Assembly: GCF_000014005.1 (NCBI RefSeq)
Contig: NC_008009.1
Coordinates: forward strand, 3,100,001-3,164,000
Source of the DNA: Candidatus Koribacter versatilis Ellin345
Lineage (GTDB): Bacteria > Acidobacteriota > Terriglobia > Terriglobales > Acidobacteriaceae
DNA length: 64,000 nt
Direction of reading: 5' to 3'
Numbering within the stretch: the first letter of the stretch is position 1; every line of letters begins with the position of its first letter. The notes under the pieces are model-generated. The model saw only the letters and a list, made by a program, of their open reading frames with translations, had not been told where the DNA came from and did no database searches. Shown one piece after another: positions 25,362 to 62,089 of this stretch. Made by a program: the position numbers and the translations under genes.

Positions 25362-25398
25362 CAGAGGTTCGTATCAGCCGATATTTTGCCGAGGGTTC

Positions 25399-25460
25399 GT
25401 ATCAGGGCATCGCTTCAGCGATGCCGAAAACGCACATCTGATTTTGGGCTTTAGCCCCTG
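25399..25460. repeat. Two-hairpin REP-like module, single copy
   Basis: The palindrome GGCATCGC-TTCA-GCGATGCC lies at 25406-25425 in the sequence GTATCAG...CGAAAA. It is followed after about 25 bp by a second hairpin, GGGCTTTAGCCCC, ending at 25460. The same two-part arrangement occurs near 41.13 kb, at 50344-50415 and as the last unit of the array at 55262-55775. It lies between two divergent genes. Confidence 0.8.
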
Positions 25461-25511
25461 CCGCGCCCGGCCTCGCGAAACCCGCTTCCTCATGCCACAA
25501 TCAAATCGACC

Positions 25512-41023: not shown

Positions 41024-41187
41024 CTTTGTATCGCCGGAAATGCTTCGTATCGCCGGAAATGCTTCATCTCGCCGGGAATGCTTCGTATCGTGGCAAGCGC
41101 CTTGTGTCGCCGAAAGTGGCCTTGTATCAGGGCATCGCTTTAGCGATGCCGAAAAGCGCCCGAAAGAAAAGGGGCTTCAGCCCCTGC
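41024..41187. repeat. 19-bp tandem repeat running into a REP-like hairpin module
   Basis: A unit containing TCGCCGGAAATGCTTCGTA recurs with an exact 19-bp period: its TCG sits at 41031, 41050, 41069, 41088 and 41107, and TCA at 41126. The last unit continues as GGCATCGC-TTTA-GCGATGCC and then GGGGCTTCAGCCCC, the same two-hairpin module seen elsewhere. The region lies between the PEGA gene and the DapA-family gene. Confidence 0.78.
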
Positions 41188-43259: not shown

Positions 43260-43265
43260 ATTGTA
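43260..43265 (-). promoter_or_regulatory. -10-like element, leaderless TerC gene
   Basis: On the minus strand TACAAT ends 7 nt before the ATG at 43252. Its last two bases belong to the upstream in-frame ATG, which would thus not be transcribed. Confidence 0.45.
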
Positions 43266-43320
43266 CGGGAGACCGGTACTTGAGTATGGAGTGCCCTTGA
43301 GCCGCGGCAAACGCGCGGCC

Positions 43321-43701
43321 TTAACGGGACTCAAGCCCCGGTATGTGCTCCAAATGTTCTACGTCGGGCCGAAGCTGGATTTCCAAATTCTTTTCGAGAT
43401 CCATCTCAGTCCAATAGACCTTGCAGTAAGGCGCAAATCCGGACGCGGTGAATAGCACCGCATAATGTCCGTCCGGCAACTTCACGGAGAACCGCCCTTC
43501 CGCGTCCGTGATGGTGCTGAACGTTCTCTCCCCATCCGCTTCATGCACCCAGATGCGAGTTTTGGCAATTGGCGCTTTCATCGGATCAGCAACCGTGCCT
43601 GCGAATGTACGAGTCGCGCGAGAATCAAGCTGGGGGTGAGCACCCGCACAATAGGTCAGCACAACGATCATCAGAACAAATAATCTTTTCCAATTTCGCA
43701 T
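43321..43701 (-). CDS. Small secreted carboxypeptidase-regulatory-like protein
   Basis: The 126-residue product has a signal peptide (RLFVLMIVVLTYCAGA) and then a single carboxypeptidase-regulatory-like domain (TFAGTVADPMKAPIAKTRIW, TDAEGRFSVKLPDGHYAVLF). The same fold opens the two giant receptors at 51704 and 56301, but here it stands alone. Such domains are transthyretin-like and may bind surface polymers or other proteins. It follows mtgA in reverse order on the minus strand, separated from TerC by a short gap. Confidence 0.82.
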   Translation of the reverse strand: MRNWKRLFVLMIVVLTYCAGAHPQLDSRATRTFAGTVADPMKAPIAKTRIWVHEADGERTFSTITDAEGRFSVKLPDGHYAVLFTASGFAPYCKVYWTEMDLEKNLEIQLRPDVEHLEHIPGLESR

Positions 43702-43713
43702 GGTCGTCCTCTG

Positions 43714-44424: not shown

Positions 44425-44430
44425 GTTTTG

Positions 44431-44436
44431 AGAATA
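44431..44436 (-). promoter_or_regulatory. -10-like element, leaderless mtgA
   Basis: On the minus strand TATTCT ends exactly 6 nt before GTG 44424. It decides the mtgA start and rules out the long upstream extension as part of the gene. Confidence 0.5.
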
Positions 44437-44550
44437 GCAGCCTGAAGCGGGCCAATCCGAATTGGAACACCGCGCAACTACTCGCCCTTTTTCATGAGCG
44501 CCCGCTCGCCGCAGCACTACCCTGTGCCTATCTCGTCTTTGGAGGTCCAC

Positions 44551-47325: not shown

Positions 47326-47346
47326 CCCGGGGCAAAAACACCGGGT

Positions 47347-47387
47347 GCCCCCATTTCTCGCGTTTTTCGAGAAGTGGGGCTTTTATT
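47347..47387. terminator. Bidirectional terminator between Kelch and DinB genes
   Basis: A long stem pairs GCCCCCATTTCTCG with CGAGAAGTGGGGC around CGTTTTT and is followed by TTTTATTT. It serves convergent genes; the DinB stop codon lies inside the T-run. A second similar hairpin is at 47999-48033, so it is also a dispersed repeat. Confidence 0.75.
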
Positions 47388-47940
47388 TCGCCGCCGGTCG
47401 ACTCGCCGGCGGCACAATCCCATTCATCCGCAAATACTCGACGAGTTGCCCGTAGTGATCCGCCAGATGCCACACGGCCAAATACGTCATCCCGAGTCGC
47501 GAATTCGGCCCGCCGTAAGGCCCATCGATGGGCTCCATCATGTTCTTCTCGGTCGTCGCGTTGATCTCGTCGTTCAACATCGCGAACGAATCCCGCAGAT
47601 ACTTCATGATCTCCGCTTTCGACTTCGCCGGATTCGGGCCGCCCTTCTCGCAACCCTCCGGAGGCGTCGCCCCGCGCATCTCTTTCGCGAAGGCAACATT
47701 CGCGCAAGCCACGTGCTTCACCTGCTCCGCGAACGTCCGCACATCTTTGAACCCCGCACCCGTTGGCTTGAAGTTCCACTTCGCCTCCGGCATAGCATCG
47801 GCAAGACTAACGAAATCCCGTTCCTCGTCTGCCCACATGGAGTTAATCGATTCCGCAACCGTCGCCGGACGCTTCTCCCCTTGCGCCGCGCAAACCACCG
47901 CCATCGCGAGCCAAACCACAACTCCACACGCGATCTTCAT
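47383..47940 (-). CDS. Secreted DinB-like protein
   Basis: The 185-residue product starts at ATG 47940 with a signal peptide (MKIACGVVVWLAMAVVCAAQ). The mature domain has the four-helix DinB/YfiT-like pattern, with HVACANVAFAKEM and YLAVWHLADHYGQLVEYLRM supplying His residues at metal-ligand positions. DinB-like proteins are probably thiol- or metal-dependent transferases; the function here is unknown. Export of such a domain is common in Acidobacteriota. Confidence 0.82.
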   Translation of the reverse strand: MKIACGVVVWLAMAVVCAAQGEKRPATVAESINSMWADEERDFVSLADAMPEAKWNFKPTGAGFKDVRTFAEQVKHVACANVAFAKEMRGATPPEGCEKGGPNPAKSKAEIMKYLRDSFAMLNDEINATTEKNMMEPIDGPYGGPNSRLGMTYLAVWHLADHYGQLVEYLRMNGIVPPASRPAAK

Positions 47941-47965
47941 CCCACTTCTCCCCACATCATCAGGT

Positions 47966-48290
47966 AGATCATCGGGTGGATCATCGGGTGGATCATCGGG
48001 TGCCCCGCGTCTCGCGGTTTTCGAGACGTGGGATTCACGAATCTCGCCCCCCCATATAGCCGACCAACTTGGGATTTACGAATCTCGACCCCACACTAAA
48101 GCAAGGCCGAAGGCCGACCAACTTGGGATTCACGAATCTCGACCCCCGACATACAGCAAGGCCGGAGGCCGACCATGCTTCTAAGCACGACGCGACAGCG
48201 TCGTGAAAGCGTCCGGAATATTCTCCAAGCCTCTTCAGAGGCGGCGCGGCCGTTGCTCGCGATGCGCCAGCTTCGCGAGACAACGCGAGA
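47966..48290. repeat. Composite repeat region before the symporter gene
   Basis: Four elements lie here without a gene. GGATCATCGGGT repeats three times at about 47966-48001. A hairpin related to 47347-47387 follows. A 54-bp tandem repeat (units starting ACTTGGG at 48067 and 48121) comes next. A structured element at 48177-48290 includes the palindromes GCCTCTTCAGAGGC (48229-48242) and CTCGCGA...TCGCGAG; it matches 60005-60172. Confidence 0.75.
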
Positions 48291-48304
48291 CAGCGGGAAG
48301 GAAA

Positions 48305-50104
48305 TTAGCTACTCAGCGTATCCCACCCTCTTCGGTTCAAATCCCAGAACAAGAACCACAAGCAGAACGCCGCAATCGCCAGCAGCACAAACCCTTGCCA
48401 CACCGGCCCGAAGATCAATCGCCCAATCCCAAACAGCGAGCAATAGATCATGCCGCAACCCATCACCCAATCCACGGCCGACCACAGCAGGCTCTGCTTC
48501 GAGGTTTCACCCTCGAGTTCCGCAATTCGCCGCCACCCAAATGCGGAGGGCTGCACCTTGCGATAGAACTCGCGTAGCTTCGCTTCCGGCTCCGGCTTCG
48601 TTAGGAAGGTCACTACCAGCCAGCTGATTGTCGTAATCCCGGTCGTCAGCAGCATTACCCACGCAAATCCATGCGGGGTGCTGCTGTCGAGCGGACCCGG
48701 ATCAAGCTTCGGATCGAAGCGCCGGAAGATCTCCACCACGCCGGTCGCGAACCGCGATTGCAGGAACAGCGACGAAGTTGCCGCCGCCGTCATTGCCCCC
48801 ACTTCGCTCCACGCGTTGATGCGCCACCAGAACCAGCGCAGCATGAACACCAGTCCCGCGCCTGCGCCTATCGAGATCAAAAACTTCCACGCGCCCTCAA
48901 TCGAATGCATGTAGTACGTTGCCACCGCCGAGAGCACGGTCACGAAGACCGTCGCCAGTCTCGACGCCACCACGTAATGCTTCTCACTCTCGCTTGGCTT
49001 CATGAAACGCCGATAGAAGTCGTTGATCAAGTACGACGCGCCAAGGTTTATGTGCGTGCCGATCGTGGACATATACGCCGCCGCAAATCCTGCCAGCATC
49101 AGCCCGCGCAGGCTAGGCGGCAAATACGCGATCATCACCTTGATGTATCCGGTCTCGGGATCTTTCAACCCCGGGAACATCACCACCGCCACCAACGCCG
49201 CCAGAATCCACGGCCACGGACGCAATGCGTAATGCGCGAAGTTGAACCACAACGTTGCGCCCAGCGAGTTCTTCTCGTCCTTCGCGGAGAAAATTCGTTG
49301 CGCGATATATCCGCCGCCGCCCGGCTCTGCCCCCGGATACCAGCTCGCCCACCAGTTAATACTGAGATAGACGAGGAACATCACCATCCATCCCGACGTC
49401 CAATCCGGCACAAATGCCAGGTACGAGGTCCCAATCGTCGGATGCTGCGTCGCCAGCGCCGTCTTGATCGCTCCAATGCCGCCAATCGCCTTCACCGCGA
49501 AAACGGCGAGCGCAATCACCATGCTCATCTTCAGAATGAACTGCAGCAGGTCCGTCCACAGCACCGCCCACAATCCCGAGATCGCCGCATACAGCAGCGT
49601 CATCGCCAGGCAGAACATCACCGCGTTCATCTTGTGGATGCCCAGCGTGAGTTCCAGCACCTTCGCCATCGCCAGGTTCACCCAACCCATGATGATCGTG
49701 TTCACCGGCAACGCGAGATACAGCGCGCGGAACCCGCGCAGGAACGCTGCGGGCTTCCCTGCATAGCGAAGCTCGGCAAACTCCATGTCGGTGAGCACGC
49801 CCGAGCGCCGCCACAATCGCGCGAAGAAGAAGACCGTCAGCATCCCGCTCAGCGCCAGGTTCCACCACAGCCAGTTGCCGGCGATGCCGTACTTGAAGAT
49901 CATCCCCGTCACCACCAGCGGGGTATCGGCGCCAAACGTCGTCGCCACCATCGAAGTTCCTGCCAGCCACCACGACACCTCGCGTCCCGAGATAAAGAAT
50001 TCATCCACGGAACTGCCGGCTTTGCGGGCGTAGTAGAACCCGATCAGGAGATTGACGCTGAAATAAGCGACAATGACGATCCAATCAATGAGCGTAAGTT
50101 GCAT
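48305..50104 (-). CDS. Sodium:solute symporter family transporter
   Basis: The 599-residue inner-membrane protein has about 13-14 helices and the SSS family pattern (LIDWIVIVAYFSVNLLIGFY, FISGREVSWWLAGTSMVATT, TFGADTPLVVTGMIFKYG). It imports a solute with sodium. The SSS family covers sugars, amino acids, acetate and urea; the substrate cannot be told from sequence alone. It is divergent from the Rieske gene, and the 370-bp gap is filled with repeats. Confidence 0.88.
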   Translation of the reverse strand: MQLTLIDWIVIVAYFSVNLLIGFYYARKAGSSVDEFFISGREVSWWLAGTSMVATTFGADTPLVVTGMIFKYGIAGNWLWWNLALSGMLTVFFFARLWRRSGVLTDMEFAELRYAGKPAAFLRGFRALYLALPVNTIIMGWVNLAMAKVLELTLGIHKMNAVMFCLAMTLLYAAISGLWAVLWTDLLQFILKMSMVIALAVFAVKAIGGIGAIKTALATQHPTIGTSYLAFVPDWTSGWMVMFLVYLSINWWASWYPGAEPGGGGYIAQRIFSAKDEKNSLGATLWFNFAHYALRPWPWILAALVAVVMFPGLKDPETGYIKVMIAYLPPSLRGLMLAGFAAAYMSTIGTHINLGASYLINDFYRRFMKPSESEKHYVVASRLATVFVTVLSAVATYYMHSIEGAWKFLISIGAGAGLVFMLRWFWWRINAWSEVGAMTAAATSSLFLQSRFATGVVEIFRRFDPKLDPGPLDSSTPHGFAWVMLLTTGITTISWLVVTFLTKPEPEAKLREFYRKVQPSAFGWRRIAELEGETSKQSLLWSAVDWVMGCGMIYCSLFGIGRLIFGPVWQGFVLLAIAAFCLWFLFWDLNRRGWDTLSS

Positions 50105-50185
50105 CTGCGCGATGGCCTCAGGGAGCTATATAGCTCTTTCGTATTTATAAAGGAACAAAGAACAAACACAAAGCACAATCTGCGC

Positions 50186-50415
50186 CCCTGTCATCCTGAA
50201 CGGGGAAACGCCCCTCTCTGTCATCCTGAGCGGAGCGACCGAAGGCCGCGAAGTCGAAGGACCCCTGTCCTCACCAACAATGCCTCCCCGTCCTCACCAA
50301 CAATGCCTCCCCGCAGCAACACCCTGACAACTCCACAACACCCGCCTTGTATCAGGGCAGCGCTTCAGCGCTGCCGAAACCCGCCGCTCGAAACCCTGGG
50401 CTTTAGCCCCTGTGA
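50186..50415. repeat. Repeat cluster: GTCATCC copies, tandem 23-mer, REP-like module
   Basis: Two GTCATCCTGA copies occur at 50189 and 50220, the second ending GTCGAAGGACCCCTG. A 23-bp unit (TCCTCACCAACAATGCCTCC, then CCG) repeats twice at about 50269-50314. A REP-like module with changed stem bases, GGCAGCGC-TTCA-GCGCTGCC, lies at 50353-50372 and is followed by GGGCTTTAGCCCC. The T-to-G and A-to-C changes in the stem are compensatory. Confidence 0.78.
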
Positions 50416-50477
50416 CGGCAATTCCCGGACATCCTACGCCCCAAACTCGCAATCCATCTAAAGGATTCGGAGGCCCC

Positions 50478-51290
50478 ATGCGTTCGCGCGCCCACATTTC
50501 GTCGCACCCCATCCATCCCATGCTCGTGTCGCTTCCCATCGGCCTCTGGATCGGCGCCTTCGTCTTCAGCCTCATCGGATATCTCACCGACCGTTCCCTG
50601 CTCAACGCGGCCGGCTTCTACACTCTCATCGCCGGATGTGTCGGCGCAGCGCTTGCCGCTGTTCCCGGTGTCATCGATCTCTTTACTGTCGTTCCCGATC
50701 GCTCCAGCGCGCGCAGCCGCGGATACATTCACGGCTCCGTCAACATCGTTGCCCTCTTCCTGTTCCTCTACGCCGCAGCACGCCAGGGCAGTCCTTTCGA
50801 CGCCCCCGATCAAACGGTTCTCATCGTCGAATTTCTCGGCATCTGCTGCATTGGCTATTCCGGATGGCTCGGCGGCACGCTCGCCTATCGCAATCAAATT
50901 GGCGTCGAACACCTCTACGCGAATGCCGGCAAATTGAAAGAACGTACCGTTGACGGTTTCGAGCGTCCAGTCTGCAATCAATCCGAACTCGCGGATGGCC
51001 AGGCCATGCTGGTGCACATCGGTGGTGAACGCATCGCCGTTGCGCGTTGCTCCGAAGGCATCTTTGCTTTCAGCGATCGCTGCACTCACAAAGGCGGCCC
51101 GCTCTCCGACGGCGCCATCGTCGGCTGCGCCGTGCAATGTCCGTGGCATGGATCGCAATTTGATATTCGTAACGGCCGCGTAATCGCGGGCCCAGCCGAA
51201 GACCATCTCAAGACTTACGCCATCGAAATCACTGCCGGCGAAGTTTACATTCGACGCCAGCCCAGTATTCCCGATCGCAAAGCCGCGTAG
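50478..51290 (+). CDS. DUF2231 membrane domain fused to a Rieske 2Fe-2S domain
   Basis: The 270-residue protein has four transmembrane helices in residues 10-140 (DUF2231: HPIHPMLVSLPIGLWIGAFV) and a C-terminal Rieske domain in about 165-260. The cluster ligands are in RCTHKGG and CPWHGSQF, and the domain resembles bacterial Rieske ferredoxins. It would transfer electrons at the membrane, probably from a cytoplasmic donor to an oxygenase or quinone. The start is ATG 50478 with GGAGG 4 nt upstream. No oxygenase is adjacent. Confidence 0.9.
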   Translation: MRSRAHISSHPIHPMLVSLPIGLWIGAFVFSLIGYLTDRSLLNAAGFYTLIAGCVGAALAAVPGVIDLFTVVPDRSSARSRGYIHGSVNIVALFLFLYAAARQGSPFDAPDQTVLIVEFLGICCIGYSGWLGGTLAYRNQIGVEHLYANAGKLKERTVDGFERPVCNQSELADGQAMLVHIGGERIAVARCSEGIFAFSDRCTHKGGPLSDGAIVGCAVQCPWHGSQFDIRNGRVIAGPAEDHLKTYAIEITAGEVYIRRQPSIPDRKAA

Positions 51291-51703
51291 CGAGAACTCT
51301 GCTTTGTGTTGAATCGTCAGCGCAAGTGCGCTTTACGTAATATTCAGTAACTCCGCATAGAATGCGGCCCCACGCATCGTCACGTTATGTATTTCCAAAT
51401 TCCAAGTTCACCATCCTCCGCGATTACGTAGTTACACACTCCGTTCACTTCCGGACATTCAGCCCATTTTCTCCACCTGATCGCTTCCCACATCTGGCAC
51501 GTCGGTTCCAATTTCACCACTTCCCTCCGACACCTCTCCCCACTCCGTGCCAACTTCGCCCACACGTGCCACTCCGCAGCCAATCCCAAATTTAGAAGCG
51601 TCGTCCCACGATATTCAAGTTTAAGCCCTGAATCCGCGCCTCTCCGAATGGCCACCGCCTTGCTCCTCCCTATCGGTTCTCCTCCTGCCAGGAGAACAAT
51701 TCT
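51291..51703 (+). promoter_or_regulatory. 413-bp C-rich, G-poor leader of the first giant receptor gene
   Basis: No gene is recognised. In 51421-51600 C is about 41% and G about 14%, far from the balance in nearby genes. A reading frame at 51362-51595 is open but is explained by this bias. A C-rich, G-poor, unstructured leader is the kind of RNA bound by Rho factor. A ribosome binding site (GGAG) lies at 51691-51694. Confidence 0.45.
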
Positions 51704-54700
51704 TTGAAAGGTCGTCCTGCACGCATGAAGTTAAAGTTCTGGGCCCTTGCTTTCCCGCTTCTTCTCTTACTAACTTCATTTTCTGTCGCGCAAAACGTCG
51801 TCACTGGCGACGTCTCTGGTACCGTCACTGATCCGTCCGGCGCCGTAGTGCCCAACTCCAAAGTCGAGCTAAAGAGTTCTGAAACCGGCTTCGACAAAGT
51901 TGTCACCACCAGCAATGCCGGAGATTTCCGCTTCTCTCTCCTGAAGCCCGGTCCTTACACCATCACCATCAGCAACTCGTCATTCACCACGGTCACGCGA
52001 CATCTCACCGTGAATCTCGGACAAATCACCAACGCCTCGACTGCCCTCAGTGTCGGCGCCAGCACCACCACGGTCGAAGTCAGTGGTGAAGCTCCTCTCC
52101 TGCAGACGGAAAACGGCAACATCGCGACGACCTTCGACAGCCGTGCCGTTGCGCAGCTTCCCAATCCCGGCGGCGACATCACCTACTATGCGCAGACAGC
52201 CCCCGGTATCGCGATGAACACCAGCGGTGGCGGCTACGGAAACTTCTCCGCCTTCGGTCTCCCCGCCACGTCGAATCTCTTCACCGAAAACGGTAACGAC
52301 GAAAACGATCCCTTCCTCAACCTCAACAATTCCGGCTCTTCGAACCTTCTTCTCGGAAAGAATGAGATCCAGGAAGTCGCCGTCGTCACCAACGGCTACA
52401 CCGGCCAGTACGGACGCATGGCCGGAGCCAACGTGAACTACACCACCAAGAGCGGCACCAACCAGTACCACGGCTCAGCCACGTACGATTGGAATGGCGG
52501 CGTGATGAACGCCAACGAGTGGTTCAACAAGGGCCAGGGCAATCCGCGGCCATTCGCCAACAGCAATCAGTGGGGCGCAGATTTCGGCGGTCCCATCGTG
52601 AAGAACAAAACGTTCTTCTACGTCGATACCGAAGGCATCCGCTACATTCTGCCGTCCACGCAGAATATCTATATGCCGACGCCGGCTTTCGCCACCTCCG
52701 TGCTTGCAAACATCGGCGCGAACTCGCCGAGTCAGCTTCCCTTCTATCAGCAGATGATGGGTCTCTATCAAAGCTCCGCGCCTTACGGTCAGATGAAGCC
52801 CTTCAACGCTTCACCCGCATCTGCCACCGATAACACTGGCGGTTGCGGCGACATCTCCGCCTCCACCGGCTTCGGCGCCGGCAATCCTTGCGTCGGATAC
52901 TTCCTCGCCTCCGGCAAGAACCTCAACAAAGAGTGGCTGCTCACCGCGCGTGTGGACCAGAACATCGGAACGAAAGATGTTCTCTTCGGCCGCTTCAAGA
53001 TGGACCGCGGCACTCAGCCCACTTCCACCGACATCATCAACAACGATCTCTTCGGATCGCACAGTGTGCAGCCTTCCTACGAAGGTCAGTTGAACGAGAC
53101 CCACACCTTCAGCCCGAACATGGTCAACAGCCTCATCCTCAGCGGACAGTGGTACTCCGCCATCTTCGTCCGCAACAGCGGCGAACCCGCTGGACTCGCG
53201 GCGTTACCGTACAGCTCCGTGCTCTTCGGCGCCAACCCGCTGTCCACGCTCGGTGGCACCAGCACGCCCGATTACTTTTTCCCGCAAGGTCGTAACGTCA
53301 CGCAGTACCAGATAACTGACGATCTCTCCTACACCAAGGGCAGGCACGAACTCAAAGTCGGCGCGAACGTCCGTCGTAACGACATCTCGAATTACGACGT
53401 GCAGACACTGACCAGCGGCTTCCTGAATTTCGGCAGCATGGCCGACTTCTATAACGGCGCCGTCAACATCAACAATGGCGATTACTTCTACCAGGCGTTC
53501 TCGAATGCCAATCGTGTTCCACTCGCCATCTACAGCCTCGGCGTCTACGCGCAAGACACCTGGAAAGTGAAGCCCAACCTCACGCTCACCCTCGCAATCC
53601 GCGCCGATCGCAATTCCAACGCGGTCTGCCAAACCGATTGCTACGCCAACCTCGCCGCGCCCTTCGACAGCCTCTCGCACGACTCGACCATCCCTTACAA
53701 CCAGGCCATCAACACCGGCTTGCATCGTCCGTTCTACGACATCGAAGCCGCTGCCATTCAACCGCGTTTCGGCTTCTCCTATAACCCGAGCTTCGCGCAC
53801 AACACCGTGCTGCGCGGTGGTATCGGACTCTTCTCCGATCTCTATCCCGGCGTGCTCCTCGACAACATCATTCAGAACCCGCCGAACTACAACAGCTTCT
53901 TAACCTACGGCATGGGCTCCGGCGTCACCGCAGCTCCGGGTTTGGCCACCAGCGCCTCTTCGCTCGCGGCGCAATCCAACTCGTCGTTCCTCACCGGTTT
54001 CGCCAACGGCGCAACCTTGGCCGACATCACCGCGACGAACCGGTTCTTCACACCGCCCAATGTCTTCTCACCAGCCGGCACCATTCACAACCCGAAATAC
54101 ATTGAGTGGAACTTCCAGATCCAGCAGGAGATCGGTGCGTCGAACGTGCTGTCGCTCAACTACGTCGGCAATCACGGATACGACCTGCTCATCAACAACC
54201 CGGGGTTGAACATCAACAACGCCGGACTCGCGCTCGCAAATGTTCCAGATGTTTCACCCGACATTCGCTTCGGCACCGTCACCGGCCTCGCCAGCGACGG
54301 CATCTCCAACTACAACGGACTCGTCACCAGCTTCTCGCACCGCTTCTCGCGCGGATTCCAGGCGCAAGTGAACTACACCTGGAGCCACGCTCTCGACGAG
54401 CTCACCTCGCTGCCGGCCACTCCGTATAACTACGGCGAAGCCGCCAGCATCACCACGCAGTTGGATCCCAATTGTCTGCGCTGCCTCAACTACGCCAGCT
54501 CCGACGCTGACGTTCGCCACAACCTCACCTTCAATTATGTTTGGGATCTTCCTTTCAAATTCGGGAACAGATTCGTCAACCAGGTCCTCGGCGGATGGCA
54601 GTTTGCCCAGACCCTCTTCCTTCGCAGCGGCACGCCCTACTCTGTCATTGACACAGCGGCGGCCAACCAACTCTCGGGATCGTTCAGCGGTGGCACGTTC

Positions 54701-55123
54701 CTCGCGAGTTGGGCCAACGATCCCAACGGCCCCGGCGGCGTGAGCTTCGGCGATTGCAGCACGCCCGGCACCGGCGCAACTCCAAATCAGTGCCTCAGCG
54801 CTGGTTCATTCCTTGGTCCCGGTGCGGAATCCTCGTTCGGCAACGTTAGCCGCAACGCCTTCCGCGGCCCCGGCTACTTCGATAGCGACTTCAACGCCAT
54901 GAAGAACTTCAACCTCACCGAACGCGTGAAGCTGCGCGTCGGCGCGAACTTCTTCAACATCTTCAACCACCCCAACTTCCAAAACCCGGTCAACGACATC
55001 GCCTCAGGATCGTTCGGCCAGATCCTGGCCACGGTCTCCCCCGCCACCAGCCCCTACGGATCCTTCCAGGGCGCCGGCGTCTCAGGCCGCTTGATCCAGT
55101 TGGAAGCCCACATCCAGTTCTAA
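51704..55123 (+). CDS. Giant TonB-dependent receptor-like outer membrane protein
   Basis: The 1139-residue protein starts at TTG 51704 (9 nt after GGAG; ATG 51725 is an alternative). It has a signal peptide (FWALAFPLLLLLTSFSVAQ). A carboxypeptidase-regulatory-like domain follows at about 30-120 (DVSGTVTDPSGAVVPNSKVE). A plug-like region at about 125-260 and a large beta-barrel part come next, with the C-terminal Phe typical of outer-membrane barrels (EAHIQF). This Oar-like architecture is characteristic of Acidobacteriota. It probably imports or binds a large substrate; no SusD partner is present. A terminator follows. Confidence 0.9.
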   Translation: MKGRPARMKLKFWALAFPLLLLLTSFSVAQNVVTGDVSGTVTDPSGAVVPNSKVELKSSETGFDKVVTTSNAGDFRFSLLKPGPYTITISNSSFTTVTRHLTVNLGQITNASTALSVGASTTTVEVSGEAPLLQTENGNIATTFDSRAVAQLPNPGGDITYYAQTAPGIAMNTSGGGYGNFSAFGLPATSNLFTENGNDENDPFLNLNNSGSSNLLLGKNEIQEVAVVTNGYTGQYGRMAGANVNYTTKSGTNQYHGSATYDWNGGVMNANEWFNKGQGNPRPFANSNQWGADFGGPIVKNKTFFYVDTEGIRYILPSTQNIYMPTPAFATSVLANIGANSPSQLPFYQQMMGLYQSSAPYGQMKPFNASPASATDNTGGCGDISASTGFGAGNPCVGYFLASGKNLNKEWLLTARVDQNIGTKDVLFGRFKMDRGTQPTSTDIINNDLFGSHSVQPSYEGQLNETHTFSPNMVNSLILSGQWYSAIFVRNSGEPAGLAALPYSSVLFGANPLSTLGGTSTPDYFFPQGRNVTQYQITDDLSYTKGRHELKVGANVRRNDISNYDVQTLTSGFLNFGSMADFYNGAVNINNGDYFYQAFSNANRVPLAIYSLGVYAQDTWKVKPNLTLTLAIRADRNSNAVCQTDCYANLAAPFDSLSHDSTIPYNQAINTGLHRPFYDIEAAAIQPRFGFSYNPSFAHNTVLRGGIGLFSDLYPGVLLDNIIQNPPNYNSFLTYGMGSGVTAAPGLATSASSLAAQSNSSFLTGFANGATLADITATNRFFTPPNVFSPAGTIHNPKYIEWNFQIQQEIGASNVLSLNYVGNHGYDLLINNPGLNINNAGLALANVPDVSPDIRFGTVTGLASDGISNYNGLVTSFSHRFSRGFQAQVNYTWSHALDELTSLPATPYNYGEAASITTQLDPNCLRCLNYASSDADVRHNLTFNYVWDLPFKFGNRFVNQVLGGWQFAQTLFLRSGTPYSVIDTAAANQLSGSFSGGTFLASWANDPNGPGGVSFGDCSTPGTGATPNQCLSAGSFLGPGAESSFGNVSRNAFRGPGYFDSDFNAMKNFNLTERVKLRVGANFFNIFNHPNFQNPVNDIASGSFGQILATVSPATSPYGSFQGAGVSGRLIQLEAHIQF

Positions 55124-55161
55124 CGCGTGTCGCATCGTTAGATTGCTGAACTCACAAACCA

Positions 55162-55188
55162 GGGCGCTCGCAAGAGCGCCCCTTTTTT
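55162..55188 (+). terminator. Rho-independent terminator of the first receptor gene
   Basis: An 8-bp stem, GGGCGCTC and GAGCGCCC with loop GCAA, is followed by six T residues. It lies about 40 bp after the stop codon. Confidence 0.88.
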
Positions 55189-55261
55189 CTTCTCCGCTTG
55201 TTTAGGGCATCCGCTTTTTCTCAGGCCTTCCGCTTTGTATTCAGGCTTTCCCGGTTTGTAT

Positions 55262-55775
55262 CAGGGCATCGCTTCAGCGATGCCGAAAGCCGCCCCTTCC
55301 CCGGGTTTGTATCAGGGCATCGCTTTAGCGATGCCGAAAGCCGCCCCTTCCCCGGGTTTTGTGTCAGGGCATCGCTTTAGCAATGCCGAAAGCCACAGCT
55401 TCCCGGTTTGTATCAGGGCATCGCTTCAGCGATGCCGAAAACCACCCCTTCCCCGGGTTTGTGTCAGGGCATCGCTTCAGCAATGCCGAAAGCCACAGCT
55501 TCCCGGTTTGTATCAGGGCATCGCTTCAGCGATGCCGAAAACCACCCCTTCCCCGGGTTTGTGTCAGGGCATCGCTTCAGCAATGCCGAAAGCCACAGCT
55601 TCCCGGTTTGTATCAGGGCATCGCTTCAGCGATGCCGAAAACCACCCCTTCCCCGGGTTTGTGTCAGGGCATCGCTTCAGCAATGCCGAAAGCCACAGCT
55701 TCCCGGTTTGTATCAGGGCATCGCTTCAGCGATGCCGAAAACCGCCACCAAAACTATTCGGGGCTTTAGCCCCTG
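55262..55775. repeat. Ten-unit palindrome array with 100-bp higher-order period
   Basis: Ten units start with TCAGGGCATCGCTTCAGC at 55262, 55312, 55364, 55413, 55464, 55513, 55564, 55613, 55664 and 55713. Each contains an 8-bp stem GGCATCGC-TTCA-GCGATGCC (some with TTTA). Units 3, 5, 7 and 9 carry GCAATGCC, which leaves one mismatch. Units 4-5, 6-7 and 8-9 form an exact 100-bp period (55413, 55513, 55613, 55713). The array ends with GGGGCTTTAGCCCC, as in the isolated copies. All three forward frames are nearly free of stops because of the repeat; no gene is inferred. Confidence 0.92.
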
Positions 55776-55799
55776 CCGCCTCCATCGCCTCCGTACCAT

Positions 55800-56300
55800 C
55801 CGTCGTTAATCCATCCCGTAACCCCCTCGTGAAGCCGACACCACGTTCATCACTCCGAGACCGCGCTTCATCCCCAATTTTGCCACCGCTCTACTCTTTT
55901 CCGTAGGCTCCACATTCAGGAACTATGAATTCCCATACAAATACGCCCTCTACTTCGCCCTTGGCATAGCCAAAAGTATCGCCCTACGAACACCAAAGTG
56001 GTGCGTCAACTAGCCACTGTTCGAAAGAACACCCCTTTCATTGACCTTCTCTCCTCTATCGCGGCCTCCAAGTCCCCCCTGAGCGCCTTAACAGTCCCCA
56101 CGCTTCATTTTCCCTACGGATTCACATACCGTTACACAGAAGTGCCTGTCAATAACAAGGCTAAGTCTTTCCCTTTCAACCACTCTGTCCCGCTACTACT
56201 TCGGACGCCAAATTGCATCCGCCCCCGCCAGCACCCTCAGCTCGCTTTTGTACGGGTGTGTGCTCGCACCAAACATACAACTGAATAGTAGGAGGCTCGA
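55800..56300 (+). promoter_or_regulatory. 500-bp C-rich, G-poor leader of the second giant receptor gene
   Basis: No gene is recognised. In 55921-56220 C is about 36% and G about 15%. The composition resembles the leader of the first receptor although the sequences do not obviously align. A weak ORF at 55998-56288 is attributed to the bias. A strong AGGAGG lies before the ATG at 56301. Confidence 0.45.
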
Positions 56301-59300
56301 ATGAGCAAGACTCGGAGGCAGGTCCAAGTCTTGATGTTGATGTTCTCTATCCTCTTCTTCGTTAGCGCCCTGTTCGCCCAGGAAACTACGGGCGGTTTGC
56401 AAGGCACTGTCAAAGACCCGAGTGGCGCCGTCGTTCCTGGCGCAAAGGTCGTCCTCACTGCCCCTAATCTTCCGGGCTCAAAAGAAACCACGAGCGACTC
56501 CAACGGCTATTACCGCTTAACCAACCTTCCACCCTCCACCTACACCGTCACCGTCAACAAAGAAAATTTCGCAACTCTCAAGCGTGAAGGCGTGACCATC
56601 GAAGTCGGCCACCTCCCCACCCTTGATCTACCTCTACAAGTGGGCGGGAGCGGCACCGTCGTCGAAGTCACCGAAGAAGCGCCGCTGATCGACGTGACCA
56701 GTACGCGGACCATGACGAACATCACCCAGGACGTCATTCAAGACGTTCCCCACGGGCGTTCATTCCAGTCCGTGATTCAGTTCGCTCCGTCCGCTCGCAA
56801 CGAGCCTCTGGCCGGCAATGCCGTGCAAAGTAACGGCAGCGGCGGTTCCTCGCCCGGCAGCACCACCAACGGCAGCGATCACGGATTCCAGGTTGCCGGC
56901 GGTTCTGATTCCGAGAACTCCTACCTCGTCGAAGGCCAGGAGACCGCCAACATCATCGGCGGCTACTCGCACACCAACGTTCCCTTCGATTTCATTCAGG
57001 AAGTGCAGACCAAGAGCTCTGGCATCGAAGCGGAGCACGGCGGCGCACTCGGTGGCGTAGTCAACGTCATCATGAAGAAAGGCACCAACCAGTATCACGG
57101 CACCGCGTTCTTGCAGTTTGAGAACGACTCCATGGACGGATCTCCAGTCGCATACTCGCGTTACGATCCGCAATCCTCTGGAACCCCGCTCTCCTGGGGC
57201 ACCGCCGATCCGGCCTACCAGAACTACCAACCGATCAAGCCGCACACCAGCGACTTCTTCCCTGGCTTCACCTTCGGTGGGCCGATCTGGAAGGACAAGA
57301 TTTTTGGTTTCCTCGCCTTCAACCCTGAGATGAACCGCTACGAACGCTTCGTGAACTACGGGCCTTCCGCTGGTGGAATTCTGCCGTTCAGCACCAACAC
57401 CAACACCTACTACACGACCGCGCGTATCGATTCCACGATCACCCAAAAGATCCGCGTTTACGGATCGTGGCTCTATCAGTATCAGCGTCAGAACGGCCAG
57501 GCACTGCCCGGCTCTGACTCCGTCAATGGGCTCTTCAACGTGAGCTCCGGCTGTTATGGAAGAACCGACCAGCCCTGTTCAACGGGAATCCCTACGTTTG
57601 CCTTCGCTCACAACCTCGGGTACGCAGCACCGAACAGCACAACCAATGTCGGCGCTGATTGGACCATCACCAACACCTTGGTCTCCACCACCCGTTTTGG
57701 ATACTACTTCGAGAACTATCACGACTTCGGATATCCAACCACCGGCACGATCGACGCGTTCTCAAGCAGCGGTACCGGAACGACTGAGGACACCAACGGC
57801 AATCTCATCAGTAACTCGGCTCCGCAGTTGGCGCACGACACTGGTTTCTTCAATCTTGCCCAAAATCAGAACTTCACCACCCACAATGCGAACAAGGCAA
57901 TCCAGTTCGATCAGGACATTGCCTGGTTCAAATCTGGTTGGGGTGGAACCCATAACTTTAAGTTCGGGTACCAGATGAATCGGCTCTCGAACGACATCAA
58001 CCAGCACTACAACACGCCGTACGTTTCGGTCTACCCCGGCACCGCTGTCCCCTACAGCCCGCAAGGCAAGACCGGCGGCGACAACTGTGCGACGGTTGAA
58101 GGGATCACCGGTTCCAGCGATTGCGTCGGTACCTACGGTGTGGTAAACGTTCTGGATTACGGCTCCAGCGGCAAAGCGACCAGCTACAACCACGCTTTCT
58201 TCGCCCAGGATGCATGGACGATCGGGCACGGCATCACCATCAACGCCGGCATCCGTTTCGAGCATGAATACCTGCCCGCTGAGAATCAGCCCAGTGGTTC
58301 CAGTTCCAAGCCGATCAACTTCGGGTGGGGAGACAAGATCGCACCCCGTATTGGCGCGGCATGGGATGTCTTTAAAGACGGCCGCATGAAGGTCTTCGGC
58401 AGCTATGGTCAGTTCTACGACCAAATGAAGCTGAACCTTGCCATCAGCTCATACGGCGGCCAGTATTGGCAGAACTGCTATTACGCCCTGATGACCCCGG
58501 ACCTCAGCTCTGTCAGCCCGATCTTCGACGGCAGCAATCGCTATTGTTCCGGTCCAGACTCATCTAGCCAGGCGAACTTTGCGACTCCGCCTACGTCTAG
58601 TCAGTTGATCTTCCTTGAGAACCAGAACTTCCGTACCTTCCCCACGAGTTGCTCCACTTGTAGCTCGAGCGCTGAAGGCACGGCCCCTGGTATCAAGCCC
58701 TATAAACAGCACGAATCCGTTTTCGGTGTGGATTACGAGATCAGCCGCAGACTTGGCTTCGAAGCACGTTGGGACCGCCGTCGCGTCGACAACGTGATCG
58801 AGGATTCAGCCATCTACAACTCCAACGTCGGCGAGACGTTCGTCATCGTCAACCCCGGTGAGGGCGTCGACTCAACCTTCTCGAAGTTCTGGAGCTTCCT
58901 CTATCCTGGAGCTCCCCTCACTGCGGCAGATTGCGCTCCCAACCCTTGCCCCGGCAACATCGTCAAAGCGTCTCGTGCGTATGACGGCCTGGAGTTCCGC
59001 CTGACCAAAGCCCAAAGCAATCACTGGTTCGGCATGTTCTCCTACACGTACAGCAAGCTGCGTGGCAACTACACCGGTCTCACCAGCACCGACGTCGCTG
59101 ATGGCGGCGGTGGCCGGAATGCTCCCAACAACAGCCGTTCGTTCGACGAGCCGATGTTCTCCTGGAACGCCCTCGGCGGTTCCTCGAGTGGCCTGCTCCC
59201 GACCGACCGTCCGAATGCCTTCAAGGGCTACGCTTATTACGAGCTGCCTTGGCTGAAGCACTTCACAACTGACTTCGGTATCTTCCAGTTTGCGTATAGC

Positions 59301-59867
59301 GGAACCCCGCTCACCAGCTACGCTGACGTGGGCTACGGATTCCCCGGCGCATTCCCGGTAGACATCGTGGATCGCGGCAAGTGGGTTGACATAACCCAGG
59401 ATCCAACGACCGGTGCAATCTCGGTCAGCAATCCGTACACTCGCCGCACGCCGTGGTACACGCAAACTGATTTCAACCTGCAGCAGACCTGGAAGATCAG
59501 CGAAAGCAAGGCGCTGAGCTTCTCAGCAACCTTCACCAACCTCTGGAACCAGCACGCGACCGTCTCCTATGGCCAGCAGGTTGATTCCAACTTCACCCAA
59601 CAGTGGATCAACCCGCAGAACGCGGGTTGCGGTACTGCCAATCAGGGCCTGTTCGGCGATCCGCTCGGCGGTGACTGTTACGTATTCGACGGAGCAGTAG
59701 CCTACGCGGCGTACGCTCAGCCTTACGACTACAAGGCGCTGCTCAACCAGTCCGCTCTGATTTCGCAGAACGGCGGCGGACCGATCACGAACAACACCCA
59801 GTATGGCAAGCCGTACCTCTTCCAACAGCCCCGTGGCATCCGCCTCGGACTGCGTTTCACCTTCTAG
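56301..59867 (+). CDS. Second giant TonB-dependent receptor-like protein
   Basis: The 1188-residue protein starts at ATG 56301 after AGGAGG. A signal peptide (LMLMFSILFFVSALFAQ) precedes a carboxypeptidase-regulatory-like domain at about 28-115 (GGLQGTVKDPSGAVVPGAKV). Plug-like text follows at about 120-265 (DVIQDVPHGRSFQSVIQFAP, EAEHGGALGGVVNVIMKKGT). The barrel ends RLGLRFTF, with the C-terminal Phe. No clear TonB box is seen, as is common for the Oar group. It is a paralogue of the receptor at 51704 in architecture but diverged in the barrel. It likely handles large soil polymers or their fragments. Confidence 0.9.
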   Translation: MSKTRRQVQVLMLMFSILFFVSALFAQETTGGLQGTVKDPSGAVVPGAKVVLTAPNLPGSKETTSDSNGYYRLTNLPPSTYTVTVNKENFATLKREGVTIEVGHLPTLDLPLQVGGSGTVVEVTEEAPLIDVTSTRTMTNITQDVIQDVPHGRSFQSVIQFAPSARNEPLAGNAVQSNGSGGSSPGSTTNGSDHGFQVAGGSDSENSYLVEGQETANIIGGYSHTNVPFDFIQEVQTKSSGIEAEHGGALGGVVNVIMKKGTNQYHGTAFLQFENDSMDGSPVAYSRYDPQSSGTPLSWGTADPAYQNYQPIKPHTSDFFPGFTFGGPIWKDKIFGFLAFNPEMNRYERFVNYGPSAGGILPFSTNTNTYYTTARIDSTITQKIRVYGSWLYQYQRQNGQALPGSDSVNGLFNVSSGCYGRTDQPCSTGIPTFAFAHNLGYAAPNSTTNVGADWTITNTLVSTTRFGYYFENYHDFGYPTTGTIDAFSSSGTGTTEDTNGNLISNSAPQLAHDTGFFNLAQNQNFTTHNANKAIQFDQDIAWFKSGWGGTHNFKFGYQMNRLSNDINQHYNTPYVSVYPGTAVPYSPQGKTGGDNCATVEGITGSSDCVGTYGVVNVLDYGSSGKATSYNHAFFAQDAWTIGHGITINAGIRFEHEYLPAENQPSGSSSKPINFGWGDKIAPRIGAAWDVFKDGRMKVFGSYGQFYDQMKLNLAISSYGGQYWQNCYYALMTPDLSSVSPIFDGSNRYCSGPDSSSQANFATPPTSSQLIFLENQNFRTFPTSCSTCSSSAEGTAPGIKPYKQHESVFGVDYEISRRLGFEARWDRRRVDNVIEDSAIYNSNVGETFVIVNPGEGVDSTFSKFWSFLYPGAPLTAADCAPNPCPGNIVKASRAYDGLEFRLTKAQSNHWFGMFSYTYSKLRGNYTGLTSTDVADGGGGRNAPNNSRSFDEPMFSWNALGGSSSGLLPTDRPNAFKGYAYYELPWLKHFTTDFGIFQFAYSGTPLTSYADVGYGFPGAFPVDIVDRGKWVDITQDPTTGAISVSNPYTRRTPWYTQTDFNLQQTWKISESKALSFSATFTNLWNQHATVSYGQQVDSNFTQQWINPQNAGCGTANQGLFGDPLGGDCYVFDGAVAYAAYAQPYDYKALLNQSALISQNGGGPITNNTQYGKPYLFQQPRGIRLGLRFTF

Positions 59868-59888
59868 TTTCAAACTTGCAGTACTTTT

Positions 59889-59920
59889 GGGAGCCGGTTC
59901 GCCGGTTCCCTTCTTTTTGC
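59889..59920 (+). terminator. Rho-independent terminator of the second receptor gene
   Basis: A 9-bp stem, GGGAGCCGG and CCGGTTCCC (one G-T wobble) with loop TTCG, is followed by TTCTTTTT. It lies 21 bp after the stop codon. Confidence 0.85.
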
Positions 59921-60004
59921 CCGTTTGATCTCGCCCCGTTTGATCGCGCTGTGTGCGGCGTCACGATAAAGCCCGAACGCCCCTCCGACAGGCCGCAGGC
60001 CGAT

Positions 60005-60172
60005 GAGGCTCTTCAGCACGACGCGCCCACCGGGGTCCCCACCGAGCGCCGCTCTTGCGCTTGGTGGGGGCGGTCGAGCGTCGTGAACGGCGCCCTCAAG
60101 ATCCCCAAGCCCCTTCAGGGGCGGCGCGGCCTCTGCTCGCGATGTGCCAGCTTCGCGAGCCGCTGCGATCAC
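60005..60172. repeat. Structured dispersed element (second copy of 48177-48290)
   Basis: The element shares AGCACGACGCG, AGCGTCGTGAA, GGCGGCGCGGCC and GCCAGCTTCGCGAG with the copy at 48177-48290. Its middle hairpin is GCCCCTTCAGGGGC (60110-60123) against GCCTCTTCAGAGGC in the other copy, a compensatory pair change. The first hairpin has an extra 12-bp stem inserted in its loop (CCCCACCGAGCGC...GCGCTTGGTGGGG). Confidence 0.78.
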
Positions 60173-60426
60173 TCAGAATTCCTCACCACGCCACCGAAAT
60201 GCCCTAAGAATGGTGCATTTCTGCCATTCCGCGACCGTCGCGAAACGGGGCCCAGGCACCCAAATCACCGGTGTTCTGAGGAGAAAATACGGGGGCAAAA
60301 TCGACGCGCAAACCGTGTCTCGCGGAAAATGTGAGCTCGTTCGAGCGCCTATCCATGCGGGTTTGCGCAATTATCTTCGGGGTTTGTGGTAAGTTATCCT
60401 CGTAATCTACCTGTTTTCTGGAATAA

Positions 60427-60452
60427 CAAAACCCGCCTAATGGCGGGTTTTG
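60427..60452 (-). terminator. Rho-independent terminator of ctpA
   Basis: The perfect 11-bp inverted repeat CAAAACCCGCC-TAAT-GGCGGGTTTTG lies 21 bp beyond the ctpA stop codon, and on the minus strand it ends in GGGTTTTG followed by TTATT. The symmetry also allows function in the other direction. Confidence 0.85.
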
Positions 60453-60472
60453 TTGAAACTACAGCCACTTAC

Positions 60473-62089
60473 CTACTGGTTCTGGTTCGCTGCAACCTTC
60501 GCACCTGACGCAGTCGCGGTCCCCGCGGATTTCTCCGCAATCGTCTTCCGCGCGTTGTCCGCCAGTTGCTTCGCCTGGGGCAGTAAGTCCAAGCCTTTCA
60601 ACACCATCGGGTCGGTCTCCGCATGGACGCGAAGCCCTTCCTGCGCACCGAACTGGTTCACGAAAAGTTCCGCCTTGATGTTGCCGCGAATCCATTCGTC
60701 GTTGTCCTTCAGCTCCGCCTCGTTGAACGCAATCTTCTGCTCATCGAGGAACTTCCGGAACTCCTGCATCACCGCATCATCCACGTTAAATCCTTTATCT
60801 ACCGTGTGATGCAGCGCCATGTAGTGTTTCGAGAAGTTGAAGAACGCGTACTTGATGAGCAGGCGATCCTGGAAGGGATTGCCTTTTTGCGGAGCAATTT
60901 TCACGTCGGGCGTAATGCCGCCGCCGCCGTAAACCGTTCGCCCACTATCAGTTAGCTTCACTTCCTTGTTGGCGTTGTTATCGTTGTCGGCGGGGTTGTA
61001 GTAGTAGTCGTAAAGCGACACGCCCGCGTATTCACGCTGGATCAGGCGTCCGCTCGGCGTGTAGTAGTGCGCGGTGGTCAGCGCCAAACCGGTGTTCTCC
61101 GAAAGCGGATAAACCGTTTGTACTAAACCCTTTCCGAACGTGGTTTCGCCGGCGATCAGGCCGCGATCGTGGTCCTGGATCGCGCCGCTGACAATCTCAG
61201 CTGCCGAGGCGGTGCCGCGATTGACCAGCACTACCAGCGGATAATCGCGCCCATTGTTGCCGTGCGGCGCGCGGTAGATCTTCTCCGGGCTGCTGCGGCC
61301 GTGGTGCGAGACGATGACCTGTCCCTTCTTCAGGAACTTGTCGGCCACGCCCACGCCTTCGCTCAACAGGCCGCCGGGGTTCTGGCGCAGGTCGAGGATC
61401 AGGCCTTTCAAATCGCCCATCTGGTCGAGGGCTTCCTGCACTTCGTGCTCGGTCGTTTCCTGGAAGCCGGAGACGTGCATGTAGCCAATGCCCGGACGAA
61501 TCATGAAGTGAACATCTACGGAGTAGCGAGGAATCTCGTCGCGAATGACGCTGAACTCGAGCGGCTTTTCGCTGCCCTCGCGGATGACCGCGATGCGAAC
61601 CGTGGTGCCCTTCGGCCCTTTAAGCAGGTCAGCGACGTCACTGGTGCTCATGTTGTCGGTGGGCTTGCCGTCCACGGCGATGATGACGTCACCGGGGCGG
61701 ATACCGGCGCGGTAGGCCGGCGCGCCCGCGAACGGCGCGATTACGATGACCTTGTTATTGCGCGGGCCAACCTGCATACCGACGCCGTAGTATTTGCCGC
61801 GCTGCTCTTCACGCAGCAGGGCGTATTGCTTCGGGTCGAAGAAATTGGAGTGCGGATCGAGGACGCGAAGCATGCCAGGGATGGCGCCGTTGTAGATGGC
61901 TTTATCGGCGCTGACCGGTTCCGCGTAATTCTGCTCGACAACGTCGTAGACGCTGGAGAAGGTGCGCAGATCGTCGCGAATTTCGTTGTCGCTGGCGCCA
62001 GTGATCTTCTGTCCGAAGAGCATGCCGAGGCAGCCGCAAGCGAGGAGAATCAATACAACAAGGAAGATAGTGCGACGTGAACTACGCAT
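60473..62089 (-). CDS. ctpA: C-terminal processing protease (peptidase S41)
   Basis: The 538-residue protein starts at ATG 62089 with AAGGA 6 nt upstream, and has one N-terminal signal or anchor helix (RRTIFLVVLILLACGCLGML). A PDZ domain spans about 100-180 (AYRAGIRPGDVIIAVDGKPT). The catalytic dyad is Ser295 in RGTASAAEIVS and Lys320 in TTFGKGLVQT, with the 25-residue spacing typical of tail-specific proteases. The C-terminal 150 residues are helical and family-specific. It processes or degrades periplasmic proteins. A strong terminator follows. Confidence 0.93.
   Translation of the reverse strand: MRSSRRTIFLVVLILLACGCLGMLFGQKITGASDNEIRDDLRTFSSVYDVVEQNYAEPVSADKAIYNGAIPGMLRVLDPHSNFFDPKQYALLREEQRGKYYGVGMQVGPRNNKVIVIAPFAGAPAYRAGIRPGDVIIAVDGKPTDNMSTSDVADLLKGPKGTTVRIAVIREGSEKPLEFSVIRDEIPRYSVDVHFMIRPGIGYMHVSGFQETTEHEVQEALDQMGDLKGLILDLRQNPGGLLSEGVGVADKFLKKGQVIVSHHGRSSPEKIYRAPHGNNGRDYPLVVLVNRGTASAAEIVSGAIQDHDRGLIAGETTFGKGLVQTVYPLSENTGLALTTAHYYTPSGRLIQREYAGVSLYDYYYNPADNDNNANKEVKLTDSGRTVYGGGGITPDVKIAPQKGNPFQDRLLIKYAFFNFSKHYMALHHTVDKGFNVDDAVMQEFRKFLDEQKIAFNEAELKDNDEWIRGNIKAELFVNQFGAQEGLRVHAETDPMVLKGLDLLPQAKQLADNARKTIAEKSAGTATASGAKVAANQNQ

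Follow-up and report, generated by a model that had tools for sequence, protein, structure and literature searches.

RAYT-type genes flanked by inverted repeats of a non-GTAG kind form a well-defined acidobacterial group according to Di Nocera and others (2013; PMC3733652), whose text lists three of them for Koribacter versatilis (ORFs 1552, 2776 and 3477) and reports that the repeats of ORF1552 alone constitute a repeated family. Atypical structures beside other Acidobacteria genes are mentioned in PMC6006769. For the group-3 RAYT of Marinomonas, T, T and A are needed at loop positions 1, 2 and 4 while position 3 is free, a mismatch in the stem seriously reduces cleavage, and the last letters of the foot help to choose the CT at which the strand is cut (PMC8266576). 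Here we analyse a conspicuous palindrome array in Candidatus Koribacter versatilis Ellin345, which most likely arose when the left half of a REP-like, RAYT-linked mobile element, comprising the foot and hairpin 1, was amplified locally in tandem.

The window analysed, a stretch of 64,000 nucleotides, comprises bases 3,100,001-3,164,000 of a chromosome that is represented by a single contig of 5,650,368 bases. A first-pass annotation of this DNA had described ten copies of a 20-base palindrome lying directly after a terminator and between two genes for outer-membrane (OMP) proteins. Indeed, gene calls and a terminator scan place them there (Table 1), and both a pattern search and Tandem Repeats Finder recover them as a real array. 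The region 55246-55776 contains ten hairpins, six perfect and four mismatched, as found by sequence inspection and pattern search. Their 20-base consensus, referred to as hairpin 1, is GGCATCGC-TTYA-GCRATGCC, and successive units are spaced by 51, 52, 49, 51, 49, 51, 49, 51 and 49 bases. The 20-base palindrome pattern has 22 exact matches chromosome-wide, ten of which are in the array, versus none for a control pattern read backwards, and the array is therefore not a matter of chance. In units 3, 5, 7 and 9 a C.A mismatch weakens the hairpin, computed as single-strand DNA, from -9.6 to -4.0 kcal/mol. Since units 1 and 2 are both perfect, the strict alternation of perfect and mismatched hairpins that had been proposed begins only with unit 2; the overall order is perfect, perfect, mismatched, and then perfect and mismatched by turns, ending with a perfect unit.

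The proposal of an exact 100-bp period with three repeats held up. The 100-mers that begin at 55400, 55500 and 55600 are identical, and likewise yield three 100% matches, and the sequence, compared with itself after a shift of 100, matches exactly over 265 bases (55379-55643), so that the periodicity covers 55379-55743. Tandem Repeats Finder reports both a period of 100 with 5.0 copies and 96% matches and a period of 51 with 9.9 copies (55246-55743/55740). Downstream of the last hairpin 1 stands a single copy of a different hairpin, hairpin 2 (GGGGCTTTAGCCCC), at 55760-55773, and the array thus consists of ten copies of hairpin 1 ahead of one hairpin 2. This junction had been noticed earlier as a half unit joined to GGGGCTTTAGCCCC; the join is there, and the supposed half unit is in fact one complete two-hairpin element.

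Table 1. Features of the window (positions count from its first base)
Feature	Position	Strand	Basis
Single dispersed element copy	25390..25461	+	covariance model, 75.3 bits
Single dispersed element copy; before it, a short tandem repeat of GTATC-bearing 19-mers at 41023-41112	41115..41187	+	covariance model, 83.4 bits
Single dispersed element copy, GCGC stem subfamily	50340..50413	+	covariance model, 75.9 bits
Flanking gene, CarboxypepD_reg-like / OMP_b-brl_4 outer-membrane protein, 1139 aa	51704..55123	+	
Intrinsic-terminator-like hairpin (55162-55181) with T-rich tail, 3′ of first OMP gene; also at the congener's syntenic site	55162..55192	+	
Tandem array, 10 units of 49-52 bp, each GTATCAG/GTGTCAG foot + hairpin 1	55246..55743	+	Tandem Repeats Finder, pattern search, self-match
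Hairpin 1, unit 1, perfect	55265..55284	+	
Hairpin 1, unit 2, perfect	55316..55335	+	
Hairpin 1, unit 3, C.A mismatch	55368..55387	+	
Exact 100-bp periodic stretch, dimer of perfect + mismatched hairpin unit	55379..55743	+	self-match
Hairpin 1, unit 4, perfect	55417..55436	+	
Hairpin 1, unit 5, C.A mismatch	55468..55487	+	
Hairpin 1, unit 6, perfect	55517..55536	+	
Hairpin 1, unit 7, C.A mismatch	55568..55587	+	
Hairpin 1, unit 8, perfect	55617..55636	+	
Hairpin 1, unit 9, C.A mismatch	55668..55687	+	
Complete two-hairpin element closing the array (foot, hairpin 1, spacer, hairpin 2, TGC)	55701..55776	+	covariance model, 85.0 bits
Hairpin 1, unit 10, perfect, belongs to the complete element	55717..55736	+	
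Hairpin 2 (GGGGCTTTAGCCCC), once	55760..55773	+	
Flanking gene, CarboxypepD_reg-like / OMP_b-brl_4 outer-membrane protein, 1188 aa	56301..59867	+	

A search of positions 54900-56300 against Rfam returned just two chance matches, both below threshold (19.0 and 18.3 bits, where the gathering scores are 100 and 75), and no promoters were found in 54900-56350. Open reading frames of 133-223 aa traverse the array; a coding role was nevertheless rejected, since 100 is not divisible by 3 and a codon-based finder predicts no gene at this position. Nor is the array CRISPR-like, with identical repeats and unrelated spacers, because its spacers are repeated as well.

The chromosome-wide search for the palindrome, which the first-pass annotation had recommended, also revealed that it is not peculiar to this locus but belongs, as hairpin 1, to a dispersed, RAYT-linked element. 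A pattern that fixes the flanks alone (TTTGTATCAGGGC...GCCGAAA) has 38 matches in the chromosome with several different stem sequences, and at these sites a second, constant hairpin, GGGGC-TTYA-GCCCC, can be read about 20 bases 3′ of hairpin 1. The complete element, of about 74 nt, runs from GNTTTGTATCAG through hairpin 1 (8-bp stem, TTNA loop), GAAA and a further 20 nt or so to hairpin 2 (GGGGC-TTYA-GCCCC) and a final TGC. With a covariance model built from 43 aligned copies we obtained 138 matches at E<=0.1 in the 5.65-Mb chromosome, which fall into 102 clusters once neighbours within 1 kb are merged. The edges are sharp: in 87 profiled copies position -5 is a G and is followed by NTTT-GTATCAG, hairpin 2 is followed by TGC, and the sequence outside carries no information. 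The foot GTATC, whose TCAG adjoins the stem, is present in 100% of these 87 copies, which had been selected on GT[AG]TC or GC[AG]TC.

Hairpin 1 is conserved as a structure. Compensatory changes occur at four of its eight stem pairs in the 43 aligned copies (rows picked for intact stems), and among 125 copies anchored by the foot only, a less biased sample, 100 keep all eight Watson-Crick pairs despite several stem types. The loops of these 125 copies are TTCA (94), TTTA (24), TTGA (3), TTAA (2), TTCG (1) and TCCA (1), so that 123 conform to TTNA; the source copies of the model had TTYA loops, which slightly biases the 138-match and 125-copy counts towards TTYA. Loops of hairpin 2 conform to TTNA in 86 of the 87 copies.

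Other repeats are also dispersed here. One (TGTCATCCTGAGCGGAGCACGCGCAGCGTGCGCAGTCGAAGGACCCCTAT and its complement) lies at 42235-42290 of the window, has matches of 85-98% at many sites of a congeneric genome, and recurs at locus L205, positions 1520-1570. A distinct type of TTCA-tipped hairpin (AAGCC..CTTCAG..GGCGGCGCGGCC..TTGCTCGCGA) is found near 48233 and near 60113 as well as in L045, L158 and L175, and is perhaps another RAYT-type family.

The element copies are extragenic almost without exception, since of 104 same-strand clusters 103 lie between genes and one lies inside a predicted gene, as judged with a home-made codon-based gene finder that is imperfect (81% coding across 62 loci; the RAYT gene was missed). 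Read in the frame of the element, the gene contexts are ++ 41, +- 28, -- 21 and -+ 12, with one undefined, against -- 88, ++ 77, -+ 70 and +- 41 for all 276 gaps above 100 bp in the same loci. The upstream gene is thus co-directional in 69 of 102 contexts, and convergent contexts outnumber divergent ones by 28 to 12 (41 to 70 in background gaps). Copies therefore lean to the 3′ ends of genes. A bias towards one replication strand, suspected from a strand-sorted match list, was discarded when counts per 300 kb showed local runs alone (dnaA at 1.1 kb).

The chromosome encodes four Y1-transposase genes (PF01797), and one of them, on the minus strand at chromosome positions 1900206-1900718, sits where elements cluster most densely: a + copy overlaps its 3′ end, and a - copy stands 3 nt away from its start. 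No such pair flanks the other three genes, of which one has a match about 1.1 kb away and two have none within 1.5 kb. The product of the first gene belongs to the RAYTs and not to the IS200 transposases, as it scores 107.9 bits with NCBIfam NF047646 (cut-off 80) and 43.4 with the IS200 model (cut-off 55). The HuH, W-Q, Y and NP motif columns are conserved across 24 aligned proteins, and the profile of these 24 relatives finds E. coli TnpA-REP (4er8) as its first solved structure (5e-19). Beside this gene, at 1899865-1900099 of the chromosome, there is a second ladder, with five overlapping model matches, a 40-bp period and one terminal hairpin 2. The Y1 genes at 1.900, 3.290 and 4.102 Mb fit the positions of ORFs 1552, 2776 and 3477, and the element family is therefore probably the ORF1552 repeat family of PMC3733652.

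This association extends to relatives. When one RAYT locus was taken from each of 30 genomes, elements were detected at 28 (cmsearch, E<=0.01; the weakest matches, at about 18 bits, are uncertain) and no element at two. A + copy lies within 200 nt to the left of the gene at 25 loci and a - copy within 200 nt to the right at 23, both forming an inverted pair at 21 of the 30. Across 80 genomes, this one included, a RAYT protein match at E<=1e-8 was present in 45 and elements in 48, the element numbers per genome being lower bounds with about 61 candidates scored in each. Elements occur in 29 of 30 genomes with a RAYT match of at least 85 bits versus 19 of the 50 others (Fisher 5.8e-8, kinship ignored). 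Eight of the 80 have elements and no RAYT match at E<=1e-8, among them G035, whose count, a lower bound, stands at the top of those listed.

The type of foot also follows the type of transposase. In 49 flanking copies from 27 loci, hand-picked as nearest from 92 matches, the foot GTATC is found in all 17 copies that flank the closest RAYTs (nine loci) and in none of 32 at the 18 other loci. Other RAYT clades have feet such as GTGGAAG, TTTGAAAG and GGTGGA, and the two sides of a gene mostly carry the same one. A perfect stem of at least five pairs is present in 38 of the 49 copies, with loops that are all TTCA or TTTA, and 11 lack such a stem. Taken with the co-occurrence across genomes, the agreement between foot and transposase would fit element copies that are mobilised by RAYT. 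The RAYT closest to that of Koribacter outside the genus (66% identical; L098 in G079) comes from another family of the class and has the same GTATCAG foot, which is a hint of horizontal transfer of the RAYT/element pair.

In a congener (G001) the same two OMP genes are 466 bp apart, as compared with 1163 bp here, and their junction keeps the terminator and has no hairpin of the array type, so the array arose, or was lost in the congener, after the split. Similarly, a hairpin scan of the 292-bp congener stretch syntenic to the element at 50340..50413 found none. The congener has at least 55 elements and a 48-residue stretch 60% identical to RAYT, which is perhaps a relic of that gene. It also has 14 copies of a GAGGTAG sister family with the same hairpin 2, of which none occurs in five other genomes searched, this one included. 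When three gaps were aligned between the two genomes, the element block was absent at site 1, while sites 2 and 3 aligned poorly; clean empty sites are unreadable because the congener flanks are just 70-90% identical, approximately, at the element sites compared. At two further syntenic sites (L328 in G001:C142 versus chromosome positions 5541984-5542575) hairpin 2 is common to both genomes, and hairpin 1 and foot differ (GTATCAG here, GAGGTAG in the congener), which indicates that replacement in place occurs too. The surroundings of the array are likewise variable: against G001:C189, window positions 40501-60500 show that the congener lacks most of the first OMP gene and several kb around 43.2-47.4 kb, and hence that the region varies beyond the array.

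Iteration on one side is not confined to the array. We inspected 89 dispersed loci, that is, the 104 clusters less 15 (eight without a foot, three of the RAYT locus, three short ones and the window array). Within 300 nt of these elements GTATCAGG occurs 55 times upstream and never downstream, and hairpin-2 cores three times upstream and never downstream; GTATC within 250 nt occurs 91 times upstream versus 10 downstream (Wilcoxon 1.6e-7). Hairpin 1 or the foot is iterated upstream, whereas hairpin 2 is usually single at the 3′ end, the exceptions being successive whole elements. Foot ladders are found at 41 of the 89 loci. Flanks that agree at 60% or more are seen in 24 of 88 pairs of successive units at these other loci, as against 126 of 20000 random locus pairs, and the units of the array carry a local spacer; both observations indicate growth in place. 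Where at least one pair exceeds 60% flank identity, a cut set post hoc, 10 of 11 ladders have a last pair that is more similar than the first one, but over all 23 ladders with at least two pairs the corresponding counts are 13 up, nine down and one equal.

How the array grew can be pictured as follows. Copies would spread when RAYT cuts a folded single strand beside the hairpins; one copy may have inserted between the two OMP genes after the split from the congener, and the array would then have lengthened where it stood, through slippage during replication or through unequal recombination at the hairpins, presumably with single 51-bp units first and the 100-bp dimer later. A recent local duplication of this sort, by unequal crossing-over or slippage, is what the first-pass annotation had suspected, and it is borne out by the three identical 100-bp units, the locus-specific spacers and the congener without the array. 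Its further suggestion that the hairpins seed recombination is putative and compatible with local duplications. The array is explained most economically by slippage or by unequal recombination at the hairpins, and our best reading is a lineage-specific, in-situ tandem amplification within the acidobacterial REP/'TIRtron' family. The grounds for it lie in the sequence, namely sharp edges, dispersed intergenic copies, compensatory stems, the inverted pair at the RAYT gene of this genome and of relatives, the congener without the array and the identical 100-bp units. As a stem mismatch lowers cleavage by the Marinomonas group-3 enzyme, the four mismatched units are predicted to be poor RAYT substrates.

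The transposase itself might instead have built the array, through incomplete reactions in which a one-sided cut 5′ of hairpin 1 is followed by rejoining, with the 5′-only foot ladders as products of the same process; we think this unlikely. The upstream excess of GTATCAGG and GTATC would fit it, as would the iteration of hairpin 1 beside a hairpin 2 that stands mostly once at the 3′ end. The joints of the array can moreover be drawn at C|T, the dinucleotide cut by characterised TnpA-REP enzymes (PMC8266576), although the phase of a joint is arbitrary in any tandem repeat. Some of the upstream feet derive from a module that recurs in the neighbourhood, and not from duplication. The asymmetry is also not seen in the four relatives sampled, where GTATC within 300 nt of 41 top-scoring copies counts 8 upstream and 5 downstream in G033, 8 and 7 in G035, 0 and 0 in G001 and 0 and 1 in G047 (the 40 relative regions examined were chosen from the best-scoring copies), and G033 iterates whole elements instead. 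Its tandem array of complete two-hairpin elements (L316, G033:C78:12486-14400) has a long unit with further hairpins. A wider form of the idea, which we hold to be similarly improbable, is that RAYT elements in this genome grow from one end, with foot or foot plus hairpin-1 modules added beside a complete element, older ones pushed 5′ and decaying, and hairpin 2 capping the 3′ end. If this were true, the array and the foot ladders at 41 of 89 loci could be read as the history of repeated one-sided RAYT reactions. The 55-to-0 count of GTATCAGG and the 10 of 11 ladders with a more similar last pair speak for it, and the tally over all 23 ladders, the post hoc cut and the four relatives that lack the asymmetry speak against it.

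A role in RNA, as a back-up terminator, a transcript-stabilising 3′ end or a processing site between the genes, appears less likely still, even though the array follows a co-directional gene and its terminator and copies of the family stand mostly behind genes. The first-pass annotation had suggested a block to read-through, for which we found no support: on the + strand neither hairpin is followed by a T-run, and a terminator scan gave two sites versus 1.6 +/- 1.4 in shuffled sequence, these two being the terminator ahead of the array and hairpin 2 read on the - strand, with no + strand site inside the array. The weakened stem in four of ten units and the congener junction without the array also speak against such a role, as does the fact that a preference for gene 3′ ends is described for REPs at large (PMC3733652). 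The regular spacing of 49-52 bp, and the binding of gyrase and other proteins to E. coli REPs (PMC3733652), might favour a site that acts as DNA, for example for a nucleoid protein or gyrase, and is kept since many in-phase copies help. This we regard as very improbable, given that the array is not conserved in the congener, that the unit type alternates, and that its layout is unmatched in other clusters of the chromosome except the 40-bp ladder beside the RAYT gene. There is, finally, only a slight chance that the copy number is an artefact of assembly or cloning; three identical 100-bp units are difficult for short-read assembly, but the genome is a single contig, units differ at either end of the array, and a similar ladder stands beside the RAYT gene. 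Local amplification of a mobile element thus remains our preferred reading, and most likely the array has no selected function at this spot and is an overgrown copy of a known kind of genomic hitch-hiker, not a new gene-control device.

A conspicuous acidobacterial palindrome array has thereby been given a concrete identity, and RAYT-linked repeats of its kind are common in the group (elements in 48 of the 80 genomes). Loop letters that match in-vitro needs and a foot type that matches the transposase clade make these repeats a good natural data set on how RAYTs, as domesticated transposases, recognise folded single-stranded DNA, and if the enzyme made the one-sided foot ladders, they would represent a footprint of a new kind. 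The array itself is not turned into a new device by any of these points.

Among known systems, the TIR repeats of TIRYT genes ('TIRtrons') of the Acidobacteria group (PMC3733652) likewise have a RAYT-type gene within inverted non-GTAG repeats that form a dispersed family; the text of that paper, its sequence figure being outside the comparison, does not describe a two-hairpin make-up, TTNA loops, a hairpin-1 array or 5′-sided ladders. Canonical REPs and REPtrons (E. coli, Stenotrophomonas, Marinomonas) are likewise short intergenic palindromes with an unpaired, conserved 5′ foot, copies beside a RAYT gene and tandem clusters (PMC8266576). Their foot is GT[AG]G, however, whereas each element here has a GTATCAG foot and two different hairpins in the same orientation. 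The family was therefore not classed as a canonical GTAG-type REP, and among the genomes searched the GAGGTAG sister family occurs in the congener alone. The loop alphabet TTNA nonetheless equals the in-vitro requirement of the Marinomonas group-3 RAYT. BIMEs and REPINs are two-hairpin composites with tandem copies as well (PMC8266576, PMC3116915), but as described there they join one REP to an inverted second copy of itself; we rejected an inverted-dimer reading because hairpin 1 and hairpin 2 differ and share their orientation. The head-to-tail REP clusters used for typing Stenotrophomonas maltophilia consist similarly of clustered palindromic units, the number of which varies per locus (PMC2613905); compared with that account, this array is distinguished by its alternating units and by the one hairpin 2 at its end. 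In the open-licence literature searched, which leaves aside a figure that possibly shows the repeat, we did not meet the two-hairpin make-up, the loop alphabet, the iteration of hairpin 1 or the one-sided ladders. What is new is therefore a set of details, namely the iteration of hairpin 1 but not hairpin 2, the 5′-only pile-up of feet and the TTNA loops, in an array that is itself of a known kind and no new system.
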